Shown here piece by piece: positions 10,631 through 17,101 of a stretch of DNA of 52,142 nt. Source of the stretch: Mitsuaria sp. GD03876 (GTDB lineage: Bacteria > Pseudomonadota > Gammaproteobacteria > Burkholderiales > Burkholderiaceae_C); NCBI RefSeq assembly GCF_029840635.1, contig NZ_JAOCCU010000044.1:1-52142 (forward strand), written 5' to 3'. Both the position numbers and the translations under genes were made by a program. The notes under the pieces were generated by a model. That model saw nothing but the letters and a program-made list of their open reading frames with translations. It was not told where the DNA came from and searched no databases. Numbering within the stretch: the first letter of the stretch is position 1; each line of letters opens with the position of its first letter.

Positions 10631-13252
10631 ATGAGACTTCGCCCCTGCGCCCTGCCCCATCCGATGCTGCCGTGGCTGCTGCCCGCGCTGCTGGCCGTCG
10701 CCGGCTCGTCGGCCTCGGCCTACGACTGCACCGGCGTCGCCGACTGGAACGCGGCCACCGCGTACAACGGCAACGCGATCGTCAAGCTCGCCGGCACCGC
10801 CTACCAGGCCAAGTGGTGGACGCAGAACAACTCGCCGGCGACCAACTCCGGGCAATGGGACGTGTGGAAGGTGCTCGGCGCCTGCGAGGGCGGCGGCGGC
10901 GGCACGAACAAGCCGCCGACGGTGTCGCTGAGCGCGCCCGGCGCCGGCAGCTCGCCGACGGCCGGCGACGTGGTGACGCTCGCGGCCAATGCCGCCGACA
11001 GCGACGGCAGCGTCGCCAAGGTCGGCTTCTACGTCAACGGCGCGCTGGTCGCGGAGGACACCACCGCGCCGTACAGCGTGACCTGGACCGCGCGTGCCGG
11101 CGTGGCCGACATCACCGCCCGCGCCACCGACGACAAGGGCGCCACGACCGACAGCACCGCGGTGCGCATCACCGTGCAGGGCCAGGTCACCGGCGACGAA
11201 CGCTGCCGCCCCGAGGGCCTGGTCACCACCGCCGGCACCGCGCCCGCCTACTGCAAGGTCTACGACGACCAGGGCCGCGAGAAGATGGGCGCCGACAAGC
11301 CGCGCCGGATCATCGGCTACTTCACCAGCTGGCGCACCGGCAAGACCGGCCAGCCCGCGTTCCTCGCCCACCAGATCCCGTGGGGCCAGGTCACGCACAT
11401 CAACTACGCGTTCGCGCACGTCGACGCGGCCAACAAGCTCTCGGTGGGCAACACCGCCGACGCCGCCAACCCCGCCACCGGCCTGACCTGGCCGGGCACC
11501 GCGGGCGCGGAGATGGACCCGGCCTATGCGTACAAGGGCCACTTCAACCTGCTCAACAAGTTCAAGAAGCAGTACCCCAACGTCAAGACGCTGATCTCGG
11601 TCGGCGGGTGGGCCGAGACGACCGGCTTCTACACGATGACCACCAACGGCGACGGCTCGGCCAACACCGCCGGCATCAACGCGTTCGCCGATTCCGCCGT
11701 GGCCTTCCTGCGCCAGTACGGCTTCGACGGCGTGGACATCGACTACGAGTACCCCACCAGCATGAAGGACGCCGGCAACCCGGTGGACTTCGCGATCAGC
11801 AACGCGCGCCGCGCCGCGCTGATGAAGAACTACGTCGTGCTGATGCGCACGCTGCGCGCGAAGCTGGACGCGGCCAGCCAGGCCGACCAGCGCCATTACC
11901 TGCTCACGATCGCGGCGCCCTCCTCCGGCTACCTGCTGCGCGGGATGGAGGCCTTCCAGGTCACCCAGTACCTGGACTACGTGAACATCATGAGCTACGA
12001 CCTGCACGGCGCGTGGAACCAGTTCGTCGGGCCCAACGCGGCGCTGTACGACGACGGCCGCGACGCGGAGCTGACGGCCTGGAACTACTACTCGAGCAGC
12101 CAGTACGCGCGCATCGGCTACCTCAACACCGACTGGGCGTACCACTACTTCCGCGGCGCGATGCCGGCGGGCCGCATCAACATCGGCGTGCCGTACTACA
12201 CCCGCGGCTGGCAAGGCGTGACGGGCGGCACCAACGGCCTGTGGGGCCAGGCGTCGCTGCCCGACCAGAGCAAGTGCCCCGCGGGCACCGGCGGCGGCAC
12301 CGTGCAGAAGTGCGGCAACGGCGCGATCGGCATCGACAACCTCTGGCATGACCTGGACGTCTCCAGCAAGGAAGTGCCGGCCGGCTCCAACCCGATGTGG
12401 CACGCGATGAACCTCGCCTCGGGCCGCCAGGGCAGCTACCTCGCCGCCTACGGCCTGAATCCGGCGGCCAACCCGGCCGACCGGCTCACCGGCACCTACG
12501 TGCGCAACTACGACGCGACGCTGGTGGCGCCGTGGCTGTGGAACGCGCAGAAGCAGGTCTTCATCAGCACCGAGGACGACCAGTCGCTGGGCGTGAAGGC
12601 GCAGTACATCGCCGACCGCGGCATCGGCGGCGTGATGTTCTGGGAGTTCGCCGGCGACTACGCCTTCGACGCCGCGCGCAACGAGTACTTCATCGGCAAC
12701 ACGCTGACGAGCACGCTCTACAACAAGCTCAAGACGGCGAGCGCCTACGGCAACCGGCTCACGCCGGCGAGCCTGCCGGCGCAGACGCTGGACATCGGCT
12801 TCGCGCTGGCCGGCTTCGCGCTGGGCGACAGCAACTACCCGATCACGCCCAAGCTCACGCTGACCAACAACAGCACGACCACGCTGCCGGGCGGCGCCGA
12901 GTTCCAGTTCGACGTCCCGACGGCGATCCCGGCGACGGTGACGGACCAGAGCGGCTTCGGCCTGACGGTGATCGCCAACGGCTCCAACGCCGCGGGCAAC
13001 AACGTCGGCGGGCTGAAGAACGACTTCCACCGCGCCAGCTTCAAGCTGCCGTCGTGGCAGAGCCTGGCGCCCGGCGCCAGCGTCACCGTGACGATCAACT
13101 ACTACCTGCCGATGCCCATGCCCAGCAACTGGACCGTGAGCTTCAACGGCCAGAGCTACGCGCTGGCGCAGGAAGCGCGGCGCGGCGCGGTGCCGGCCGT
13201 CGCGCCGGCCACGGCGAAGACCAACCTCAAGACATCGGCCGCGACCAAGTAA
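10631..13252 (+). CDS. Secreted GH18 chitinase with CBM5/12, Ig-like and C-terminal ChiC domain
   Basis: The 873-residue secreted protein hydrolyses chitin. Domains in order: signal peptide (1-30, cleavage ASA/YDC); CBM5/12 chitin-binding domain (31-85; AYQAKWWTQNNSPATNSGQW and Cys ends); a bacterial Ig-like domain (about 95-183); GH18 catalytic barrel (about 225-720) with SVGGW (323-327) and the catalytic DGVDIDYE (D366-E373, E373 as acid/base); and a C-terminal domain (about 735-840) like the chitinase C domain of Vibrio and Escherichia enzymes. AGGAG precedes the ATG. It is followed after 79 bases by a second chitinase on the same strand. Confidence 0.93.
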   Translation: MRLRPCALPHPMLPWLLPALLAVAGSSASAYDCTGVADWNAATAYNGNAIVKLAGTAYQAKWWTQNNSPATNSGQWDVWKVLGACEGGGGGTNKPPTVSLSAPGAGSSPTAGDVVTLAANAADSDGSVAKVGFYVNGALVAEDTTAPYSVTWTARAGVADITARATDDKGATTDSTAVRITVQGQVTGDERCRPEGLVTTAGTAPAYCKVYDDQGREKMGADKPRRIIGYFTSWRTGKTGQPAFLAHQIPWGQVTHINYAFAHVDAANKLSVGNTADAANPATGLTWPGTAGAEMDPAYAYKGHFNLLNKFKKQYPNVKTLISVGGWAETTGFYTMTTNGDGSANTAGINAFADSAVAFLRQYGFDGVDIDYEYPTSMKDAGNPVDFAISNARRAALMKNYVVLMRTLRAKLDAASQADQRHYLLTIAAPSSGYLLRGMEAFQVTQYLDYVNIMSYDLHGAWNQFVGPNAALYDDGRDAELTAWNYYSSSQYARIGYLNTDWAYHYFRGAMPAGRINIGVPYYTRGWQGVTGGTNGLWGQASLPDQSKCPAGTGGGTVQKCGNGAIGIDNLWHDLDVSSKEVPAGSNPMWHAMNLASGRQGSYLAAYGLNPAANPADRLTGTYVRNYDATLVAPWLWNAQKQVFISTEDDQSLGVKAQYIADRGIGGVMFWEFAGDYAFDAARNEYFIGNTLTSTLYNKLKTASAYGNRLTPASLPAQTLDIGFALAGFALGDSNYPITPKLTLTNNSTTTLPGGAEFQFDVPTAIPATVTDQSGFGLTVIANGSNAAGNNVGGLKNDFHRASFKLPSWQSLAPGASVTVTINYYLPMPMPSNWTVSFNGQSYALAQEARRGAVPAVAPATAKTNLKTSAATK

Positions 13253-13331: not shown

Positions 13332-15374
<2,043 letters not shown>

Positions 15375-15604: not shown

Positions 15605-15623
15605 GCTGCCACGCAGTGGCAGC
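15605..15623. repeat. Perfect hairpin GCTGCCAC-GCA-GTGGCAGC
   Basis: An 8-bp perfect stem lies just upstream of the LexA-controlled promoter and is followed by TTCCCC. It could insulate that promoter from upstream transcription; this is inference. Confidence 0.45.
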
Positions 15624-15639: not shown

Positions 15640-15669
15640 TTGAAATACTGTATGCACATCCAGTATTCT
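15640..15669 (+). promoter_or_regulatory. SOS promoter with near-consensus LexA box
   Basis: TACTGTATGCACATCCAGTA (15646-15665) matches the canonical LexA box TACTG(TA)5CAGTA at both five-base arms, with CTG and CAG exactly 10 bases apart. It fills the spacer between a -35 TTGAAA (15640-15645) and a -10 TATTCT (15664-15669, spacing 18), the ideal place for repression. The only gene it can drive is the unknown gene at 15712. Confidence 0.85.
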
Positions 15670-15711
15670 CTTTCCTCCAAGAGCAGCGAACCGATGTGGA
15701 AGGAAGCCGTC

Positions 15712-16227
15712 ATGCGACGTTATGAAGTCATTCTCGAGAGGGTCATGGTCCCCTACCACCAGCACGAACTGGCGCGCGTGATCGCGTCGCAGGTGCTGGA
15801 TGCGCGGCTGGGCGGGCCGGCCGGCGTGGTGGACGCGTTCAACGCGGCCCAGGCCGTCACTGGCGGCGACCCGCGCTGGCCGGTCCCCGAGTCCGCGACC
15901 CGCGCCGACGTGGCCGCCGTCAAGCGCTGGCGCCGCGCCACCGAAGCGGCGCTGGACGCCATCGAGCGCGGCTTCGCGCATGTCTTCGTCGGCATGTCGG
16001 AGCAGGAGATCGAGCTGGCCCGCGCCGACGAGTTCCTGAGCATCGTCCCGCACGCCCACGAGGAGCCGGTGCCGGCGCGGCTGCTGTCCGAGGCGCGCGT
16101 CGGGCTGCCGTGGTCGGCCACGGCGGCGGTGATGGTCAGCGCCGCGGCGCAGGCGGCGCTGGTGGCGCCGGCGGCATTGATCGCGCAGGCTCCGGTGATG
16201 GCACACGCGGCGGCGTTCGCGCGCTGA
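15712..16227 (+). CDS. SOS-controlled protein of unknown function
   Basis: I do not recognise this 171-residue protein. The start at 15712 is chosen because GGAAGGAAG lies 6-14 bases upstream; an in-frame ATG at 15694 is possible. The N-terminal 130 residues are mixed-charge and look helical. The last 40 residues (from LPWSATAAVM) are Ala-rich and almost uncharged, long enough for a membrane hairpin or a hydrophobic helix. A near-perfect LexA box sits in its promoter, so it should be induced by DNA damage. Cell-division inhibitor, membrane-active peptide or stress toxin are possible by analogy only. Its last 92 bases overlap a convergent gene. Confidence 0.7.
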   Translation: MRRYEVILERVMVPYHQHELARVIASQVLDARLGGPAGVVDAFNAAQAVTGGDPRWPVPESATRADVAAVKRWRRATEAALDAIERGFAHVFVGMSEQEIELARADEFLSIVPHAHEEPVPARLLSEARVGLPWSATAAVMVSAAAQAALVAPAALIAQAPVMAHAAAFAR

Positions 16228-17101
16228 CGGCCTCGCCCGGCGGGCACGACCGCACAAGCTTCAGATCCTGGCCGGCGCGCCGGAACTTCATCGCGCGCCG
16301 CAACGAATGCGCGCCGACGACCTCCCAGAACGAAGGCACCAGTTCATCCTCGGCGAGCCGGGTCAGGCAGGCGAGCACCCCCGCCTGCACCGGATCGCCC
16401 GGCAGCGCGGGCAACAACCGCCCGTCCTGGATGAGGCGGCTGAAGAAATCGGTGCCGCGGCTGCCGATGGACAGGCCGCCCGGATGCTTGGTCCAGAGCA
16501 GCCATTGCCGGAACTGCAGGCGCGCCCGACGCCTCGGCGGCGCGATCTCGATGACCAGTTGCCCGAGCAGATCGCCCGTCGCGGCACAGCCCCGGGCGCC
16601 GCTCGCCAGCTTCAGCAGGAACGGCGGCCGGTCCCGCCGCGGCGAGCGGCACAAGGTCGTCACCGCCCGCTCGCGCGACAGCAGGCCCGTCCGCAGCAGC
16701 CCGGTGACCAGGGTCACGTAGCACGCGGTTTCGCGCCGGACGGCCCCCTTCCTCCTTGGCGCCCCGGGGTCCTCGTCGACGCCCTCCGGAACCAGCGCGG
16801 TCATCGCCTCGACCATCCGGTCCGACAGCAGCACCGGCGCCCGCAGCCGCAGCGCGGCGGAGCCCGGTTCCGCCTCCGCGAGCCGCTCCATCGCCGTCAG
16901 CAACGCCAGCATCGACCGCCGCCGCCCGGCCTGCCGGGCGGGGTCGGGGCCCTCCGGTTCGAACTGCCCCAGGATCTTGTCGACGACGCTGCCCCAGTAC
17001 GAGGGCGCCCCGTCCGCCGTCTCCTTGCGCAGCCCCGCCATCGCCTCGTCGTAGGCCGGCGGCGCGTCGCGGAAGTTCAGGCCGTTGTCGATGATCGCCA
17101 T
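16136..17101 (-). CDS. Unknown protein, paralogue of the next gene
   Basis: The 321-residue protein has no signal peptide or membrane segment and no family I can name. Residues from about 130 to 275 align by eye with the 489-residue neighbour: DRPPFLLKLA against GRPPFLLRLA, TDFFSRLIQDG against YTDFIGRLIGDG, and EVVGAHSLRR against EVVDRHSGSR. The repeated helical-looking pattern suggests an alpha-helical scaffold. The C-terminus is a low-complexity tail (PPAPPAPPAPRR) read from DNA that overlaps the 3' end of the SOS gene. It starts 13 bases after the stop of the neighbour at 17115-18584 and is probably co-transcribed with it. Confidence 0.6.
   Translation of the reverse strand: MAIIDNGLNFRDAPPAYDEAMAGLRKETADGAPSYWGSVVDKILGQFEPEGPDPARQAGRRRSMLALLTAMERLAEAEPGSAALRLRAPVLLSDRMVEAMTALVPEGVDEDPGAPRRKGAVRRETACYVTLVTGLLRTGLLSRERAVTTLCRSPRRDRPPFLLKLASGARGCAATGDLLGQLVIEIAPPRRRARLQFRQWLLWTKHPGGLSIGSRGTDFFSRLIQDGRLLPALPGDPVQAGVLACLTRLAEDELVPSFWEVVGAHSLRRAMKFRRAGQDLKLVRSCPPGEAVSARTPPRVPSPEPARSMPPAPPAPPAPRR

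Follow-up and report, generated by a model that had tools for sequence, protein, structure and literature searches.

What does a bacterium do with a gene that stands under a LexA-type box and encodes a protein of no recognised family? Beyond a few model genera, SOS regulons are known mostly as lists of recognisable repair genes, so new damage functions may be hidden among LexA-boxed genes that have no family name. One such gene is found in Mitsuaria sp. GD03876, whose 6.36-Mb genome (G000) is assembled in 94 contigs. The whole of contig C39 (NZ_JAOCCU010000044.1, 52,142 nucleotides) was analysed and is called the window here. The gene is conserved and boxed throughout its genus and has boxed prophage relatives, and its 171-residue product has a confidently predicted core with no convincing match among solved structures. 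SOS control as such is of a known kind. No description of this protein family, of its pairing with a second damage-type operator, or of that operator's gene set was found in the titles and abstract openings of the open-access papers searched. The reading favoured here, with confidence a little short of even, is that of a LexA-repressed, damage-induced gene with a second upstream repeat, whose small product would have no enzyme activity and would work in the damage response by binding a partner. Neither the second repeat nor the prophage relatives figured in the initial annotation, a reading of the letters of this stretch.

The gene occupies positions 15712..16227 of the plus strand, with 171 codons before the stop, as listed among the open reading frames and as first described. 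All its upstream elements are on the same strand. A ribosome-binding-site-like AAGGA (15700..15704), read directly, lies 7 bases 5′ of the start codon, the position of which is kept in the orthologues, with GTG in genome G007. Direct reading also gives a predicted −35 element, TTGAAA (15640..15645), and a predicted −10 element, TATTCT (15664..15669). The 18-base spacer between them is filled by the LexA-type box TACTGTATGCACATCCAGTA (15646..15665). The initial annotation had placed this box wholly inside the spacer with arms fitting the LexA consensus exactly. The box does fill the spacer, but it also overlaps the first two bases of the −10 element; its outer arms TACTG...CAGTA are indeed exact, but comparison with CTGT-N8-ACAG shows a single mismatch (CCAG).

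Is this the motif of the genome's own LexA? A single LexA DNA-binding-domain match is found in the genome, in a protein that scores above the NCBIfam LexA cut-off. The lexA promoter carries CTGTATAAAAATCCAG, which has the same one mismatch to CTGT-N8-ACAG as TACTGTATGCACATCCAGTA, and the recA promoter (recA being named by its translation) carries CTGTACAGATATACAG. The pattern covering these two boxes, CTGTAY-N4-RTMCAG, is matched six times in the genome of 6.36 Mb, and its reversed control once. The six matches are at recA, lexA, imuA (NF033429), a TIGR03916 radical-SAM gene, a 38-aa ORF and the 171-aa gene. A further box, the seventh, is TACTGTATAAATTGACAGTA, whose end falls on the start codon of a radical-SAM gene of the PA0069 family. 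When a scoring matrix is made from the six other boxes of the genome, with TACTGTATGCACATCCAGTA left out, the latter scores 30.5 bits, and the leave-one-out scores of the six matrix boxes run from 21.1 to 32.0. On an independent-base background, 0.0004 sites as good as this one are expected by chance on both strands of the 6.36 Mb, and the second-best score in the window is 8.8 bits. TACTGTATGCACATCCAGTA is thereby confirmed as a genuine LexA-type box, better than chance, and it fits the motif at the genome's own lexA and recA. Two looser patterns were dropped as unspecific: TACTGT-N8-MCAGTA with two mismatches (29 forward and 26 reverse matches vs 156 and 160 for the reversed control) and CTGKAY-N4-RTMCAG (7 vs 5 for the control in this genome, and 158 forward matches vs 61 for the controls summed over the genus). 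Another regulator with a similar palindrome might in principle bind the box in place of LexA, and the four boxes among the 16 orthologues that read CTGG...CCAG, off CTGT-N8-ACAG at both half-sites, would suit such a protein. This is however scarcely credible, given the same motif before the genome's own lexA, recA and imuA, and an imuA box that differs from TACTGTATGCACATCCAGTA at 1 of 20 bases.

The 171-aa protein is encoded in all 16 genomes of the genus (the window's own included), in none of 20 genomes from other genera of the family and, weakly, in one of 24 from the rest of the order. This last match, in a genome of another family (G045, E 1.2e-4), lies inside a 1262-aa open frame and was taken as chance. 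Those homologues of the protein search that have an organism in their given name are all Roseateles or Mitsuaria; of the nine genome records that have both a name and the gene, two are MAGs, under the titles Rubrivivax sp. and Burkholderiaceae. The genus is called Roseateles here. The same neighbours, antiporter-like and malQ-like genes named by eye, stand in the flanks of 13 of the 15 relatives and differ in G012 and G007. Because of this presence in every genome of the genus and these shared neighbours, the gene is, by its distribution, a Roseateles core gene and not a recent arrival. The box goes with it: CTG-N10-CAG lies upstream of all 16 orthologues, with constant arms and a variable centre, so that the conservation of box and gene looked for from the outset extends across the genus. 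TATTCT is kept at −10 in 14 orthologues, and TTGAA is kept near −35 in 13. G007, the most divergent of them, has the box and lacks both the second repeat and the usual −35 and −10 elements; this speaks, as do the four CTGG...CCAG boxes, against the reading. Predicted SOS control of the gene is strongly supported by the same-genome matrix score, the genus-wide conservation and the mostly kept promoter layout. In having the same operator motif over the promoter and keeping it genus-wide, the gene resembles recA, lexA and imuA; it differs from them in a product without a family and in a promoter with a second conserved repeat.

This second element came to light in the alignment of the 16 upstream regions, as a block CTG[AC]CA-N5-TGGCAG that is exact in 15 of them and missing in G007. 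The window copy, CTGCCA-N5-TGGCAG (15606..15622, plus strand), is a predicted operator some 42 bases upstream of the LexA-type box. From the centre of the repeat to the −10 element, the distance is 50-51 bases in 11 genomes, 60 in three and 62 in one, with nothing in between; these steps are of about one helical turn, as would follow if RNA polymerase or LexA has to be met by the same side of the protein bound there. If transcription starts about 12 bases past the first base of the −10 element, the repeats are centred near −62 and −72. The spacing is CTG-N11-CAG and not CTG-N10-CAG, and for this reason a shifted LexA box was provisionally set apart as an explanation.

In the whole genome the exact pattern CTGMCA-N5-TGKCAG has five sites, against none for the control. 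Four of them precede uvrA, dinB, a NIPSNAP gene and the 171-aa gene; the fifth is in the gap from egtB to a LuxR-type (GerE) gene, a relative of EpsA that scores under the cut-off of the EpsA model. The names come from the IMS polymerase domains for dinB in this genome, and from scans in sister genomes for NIPSNAP, GerE, egtB and UvrA. Positions of the second motif in this genome are C10:14937, C20:81230, C27:5257, C59:9770 and C29:22874, besides 15606-15622 of the window. A second uvrA-like gene and a transporter-like gene (the latter named by eye) are each preceded by a site with one mismatch. At one mismatch there is little excess, with 29 matches on both strands vs 23 for the controls in this genome, and 14 of the 21 places found by such a search match none of ten compared proteins. 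Across five genomes (G000, G006, G008, G013, G015), 30 exact sites were counted on the forward strand vs 5 for the controls, 26 of the 30 being at recurring loci. The 171-aa gene and the egtB/LuxR gap have a site in all five genomes, dinB in four and uvrA in three. An alkylation-repair protein (PF08713) and NIPSNAP have one in two genomes each, and the second uvrA-like gene and the transporter-like gene in one each. A further recurring locus lies by a metallo-beta-lactamase-like gene (named by eye) in three of the five, about 900 bases off in L184. Over the 16 genomes of the genus there are 77 forward sites vs 16 for the controls. The excess is smaller outside, at 26 vs 5 in 20 genomes of the family and 22 vs 13 in 24 of the order, and neither uvrA nor dinB was met at the 11 loci read there.

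The second motif thus marks a conserved gene set that looks like a second damage regulon, and it could be a repressor site. In this genome no second repeat, at one mismatch or fewer, was found near the promoters of the six other LexA-boxed loci, so that among the sites found only the 171-aa gene has both elements. Since its LexA-type box is accompanied by a repeat common to uvrA and dinB, the gene is predicted to lie at the meeting point of two damage regulons. In E. coli, uvrA and dinB are both under LexA control. A wider proposal, offered tentatively, is that two damage regulons stand side by side in Roseateles, one run by LexA and the other through the operator CTG[AC]CA-N5-TG[GT]CAG, perhaps by the LuxR-type protein encoded divergently from egtB. 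The LexA side would then comprise recA, lexA, imuA, the radical-SAM genes and the 38-aa membrane-like ORF, and the other side uvrA, dinB, the second uvrA-like gene and the alkylation-repair gene. The 171-aa gene, as the junction and as a new family shared with prophages, would couple the two. The LuxR-type gene is here simply the regulator that adjoins one predicted second-motif site. If confirmed, the arrangement would show a bacterium splitting its SOS response between two regulators, and the gene that joins them.

A second damage regulon beside LexA has parallels in those of DriD and PafBC (PMC12340889). DriD, a WYL-type protein, was considered as the regulator and rejected: its published site, ATACGAC-N7-GTCGTAT, does not fit CTG[AC]CA-N5-TG[GT]CAG. 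Caulobacter SidA and DidA offer another likeness, being genus-level damage genes of which one is LexA-controlled and the other under a second damage regulator (PMC4211646). Both are small membrane proteins; here, by contrast, the two predicted controls fall on one gene, and its product has a folded core and a loose tail.

The protein itself has no family match at E ≤ 1 in Pfam, NCBIfam, PHROG or PADLOC, and the DinI and SulA (PF03846) domains of Pfam are likewise without a match at that threshold, so the initial annotation's view that it belongs to no known family stands for these four libraries. Relatives were sought with a profile among 5.8 billion proteins; scoring was limited to the 7994 candidates with most words in common, and 55 relatives were obtained at E ≤ 0.01. 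They comprise long members, mostly tailed, and 22 short tail-less members of 93 to 132 residues (P0034 to P0055). For the window protein, AlphaFold gives a pLDDT of at least 90 in 105 of the 171 residues. The core domain (residues 1-113, 15712..16050, plus strand) is predicted as beta-alpha-alpha-alpha-beta, and the blocks that make up residues 1-110 average a pLDDT of 90 to 98. A short relative without the tail, folded alone, reaches a pLDDT of 91.2 and a pTM of 0.83, and consists of a strand, three long helices, short helices and a strand. Among the solved structures of the PDB the predicted core has no convincing fold match. Most of the positions that vary little or not at all among long and short members are structural (L29, L33, G34, G35, V39, F88); R72, W73 and an ALDA run in helix three are conserved as well, and no catalytic residue set was seen among these positions.

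The Ala-rich tail is of another nature. It covers residues 131-171 (16102..16224, plus strand), with a pLDDT below 60 over most of its length and below 50 at residues 151-171. It had been described as 40 uncharged residues, and the last 41 do lack D, E and K; they include one R, however, as the last residue, and 44% Ala. Selection is weaker on the tail than on the core, with pN/pS values of 0.22 for the core, 0.43 for the tail and 0.75 for the linker (28 pairs from 8 of the 16 orthologues). The hydrophobic look of this segment had suggested a membrane-acting product, and a toxin or lysis-like protein acting on membranes would agree with the Ala-rich, nearly uncharged end and with a hydropathy (19-residue mean) of 1.94 in the window copy. 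That copy is alone among the eight orthologues measured in exceeding 1.6, the seven others lying between 1.09 and 1.56, and the insertion energy is unfavourable in all eight, at 3.7 to 6.3 kcal/mol (unweighted sum). Moreover, the G007 orthologue and the short relatives have no tail at all. A conserved membrane helix is not supported by these figures, and a membrane-acting role appears very improbable; the protein's activity would lie elsewhere than in this loosely constrained tail.

How might such a gene work? In the preferred reading, that of a damage-induced partner-binding protein, LexA bound across the −35/−10 spacer would block RNA polymerase, and RecA filaments formed upon damage would trigger LexA cleavage and so open the promoter. 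A second regulator at about −62 or −72, a usual class I activator position, would boost transcription, so that two damage signals would together set the level of expression. With its conserved structural and Arg/Trp positions and no visible catalytic set, the core of 113 residues would bind a protein partner. In our view, it would most likely serve to tune RecA/LexA signalling or repair, in a logic like that of DinI. The DinI of E. coli is a small alpha/beta SOS protein with relatives on prophages, and it was chosen as the model for its size, its SOS control and those relatives. The 171-aa protein is likewise small, SOS-type and alpha/beta, with prophage relatives, but it has no sequence match to DinI, and its predicted order of strands and helices differs from that of DinI. 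A DinI-like link to RecA is an analogy, drawn without a family match or a convincing fold match. A chromosomal gene with prophage cousins under the same kind of box would fit a protein tuning a shared process of the host.

Could the gene instead encode an SOS inhibitor of cell division, in place of SulA? SulA (PF03846) was found in none of the 16 genomes of the genus, whereas the E. coli control matches, and for this reason the role is possible. The SOS-type box upstream would agree with it, and Caulobacter SidA and DidA illustrate that other small proteins can inhibit division (PMC4211646). These two are nevertheless small membrane proteins, and the 171-aa protein is a folded core followed by a tail without a conserved membrane helix, so a division inhibitor seems rather improbable here. 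A better candidate for the role is the LexA-boxed 38-aa ORF with its one hydrophobic segment, found in 14 of the 16 genomes. In this genome its 38 codons lie at C68:7954-8067 (loci L024 and L095) with a perfect LexA box at C68:8108-8127. A box is near all 14 copies, eight of them perfect and six with one mismatch to TACTGT-N8-ACAGTA. As the genus has no detected SulA, this ORF is a candidate small membrane division inhibitor, SidA/DidA in kind.

The short members of the family bring in the phages. Within the genus they are intact in G004 and G011, interrupted in G014 and reduced to remnants in G005 and G006. The G004 copy is near phage genes with Bro-N and a ddrB-like ParB domain, and that of G011 near a terminase small subunit and the same ddrB-like ParB domain; both copies are also found in IMG/VR viral contigs. 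Each is the second gene after another gene without a known function, and this first gene has a perfect LexA box whose last base is also the first base of its likely start codon. The G014 copy has a one-mismatch box directly upstream. Of these five prophage-type copies, two, the G005 and G006 remnants, have no box with three or fewer mismatches in the surrounding sequence that was read, which counts against the favoured reading. Given intact tail-less prophage relatives behind LexA-type boxes, the core domain appears to lead a double life, travelling in prophages as an SOS-type gene and residing also in the chromosome.

Such company raises the possibility that the protein is a regulator derived from prophages, in which small proteins under LexA control inactivate phage repressors; it would be, for instance, an antirepressor, the chromosomal copy of which would still act on resident or incoming phages. 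The two prophages with intact relatives behind perfect boxes speak for it. So do the Gifsy prophages, which have small LexA-controlled antirepressors encoded outside the immunity region (PMC3121763), and the prophage relatives found here are similarly small, LexA-boxed and outside any visible immunity region. The 171-aa gene is instead a chromosomal, core and syntenic gene, present in all 16 genomes and keeping its neighbours in 13 of the 15 flanks read, and it has no match in the phage or plasmid record collections. Its second repeat, common to uvrA and dinB, fits a host repair role better. By analogy, then, a Gifsy-type antirepressor role suits the copies in prophages well but is less apt for the core copy, for which it is judged unlikely.

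The first gene of the prophage pair forms a family of its own. Its relatives in G010, G013 and G075 have one-mismatch boxes, the G010 relative adjoining an integrase-like and lysis-like gene set (by eye); a sixth match, in G066 (E 1.2e-5), is without a clear box. In five loci (L019:1853-2245, L020:1863-2327, L130:1501-1890, L131:1498-1908 and L132:1453-1845) a member of 129-154 aa stands directly behind a LexA-type box, two of these loci being in IMG/VR contigs and one in another genus. Two members were scanned, with none over the Pfam cut-off and none in NCBIfam. An SRAP-type (SOS response associated peptidase) gene occurs a few kb from the boxed first gene at L055:6714-7457, L056:7701-8450 and L131:1905-2648; the L056 copy matched PF02586 through its part in L020, and those of L055 and L131 are named by resemblance.

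Two features of the immediate surroundings may be added. A convergent ORF of 321 codons (16136-17101, minus strand) overlaps the final 92 bases of the 171-aa gene; as it was not recovered at more than 60% coverage in the flanks of the 15 relatives, it may be strain-specific. On the other side, two long ORFs in tandem (10631-13252 and 13332-15374) have the look of secreted chitinases, with a DGxDxDWEYP-type motif seen by eye. The chitinase-like gene directly upstream adjoins the 171-aa gene in 3 of the 15 relatives and lies within about 7 kb of it in two more.
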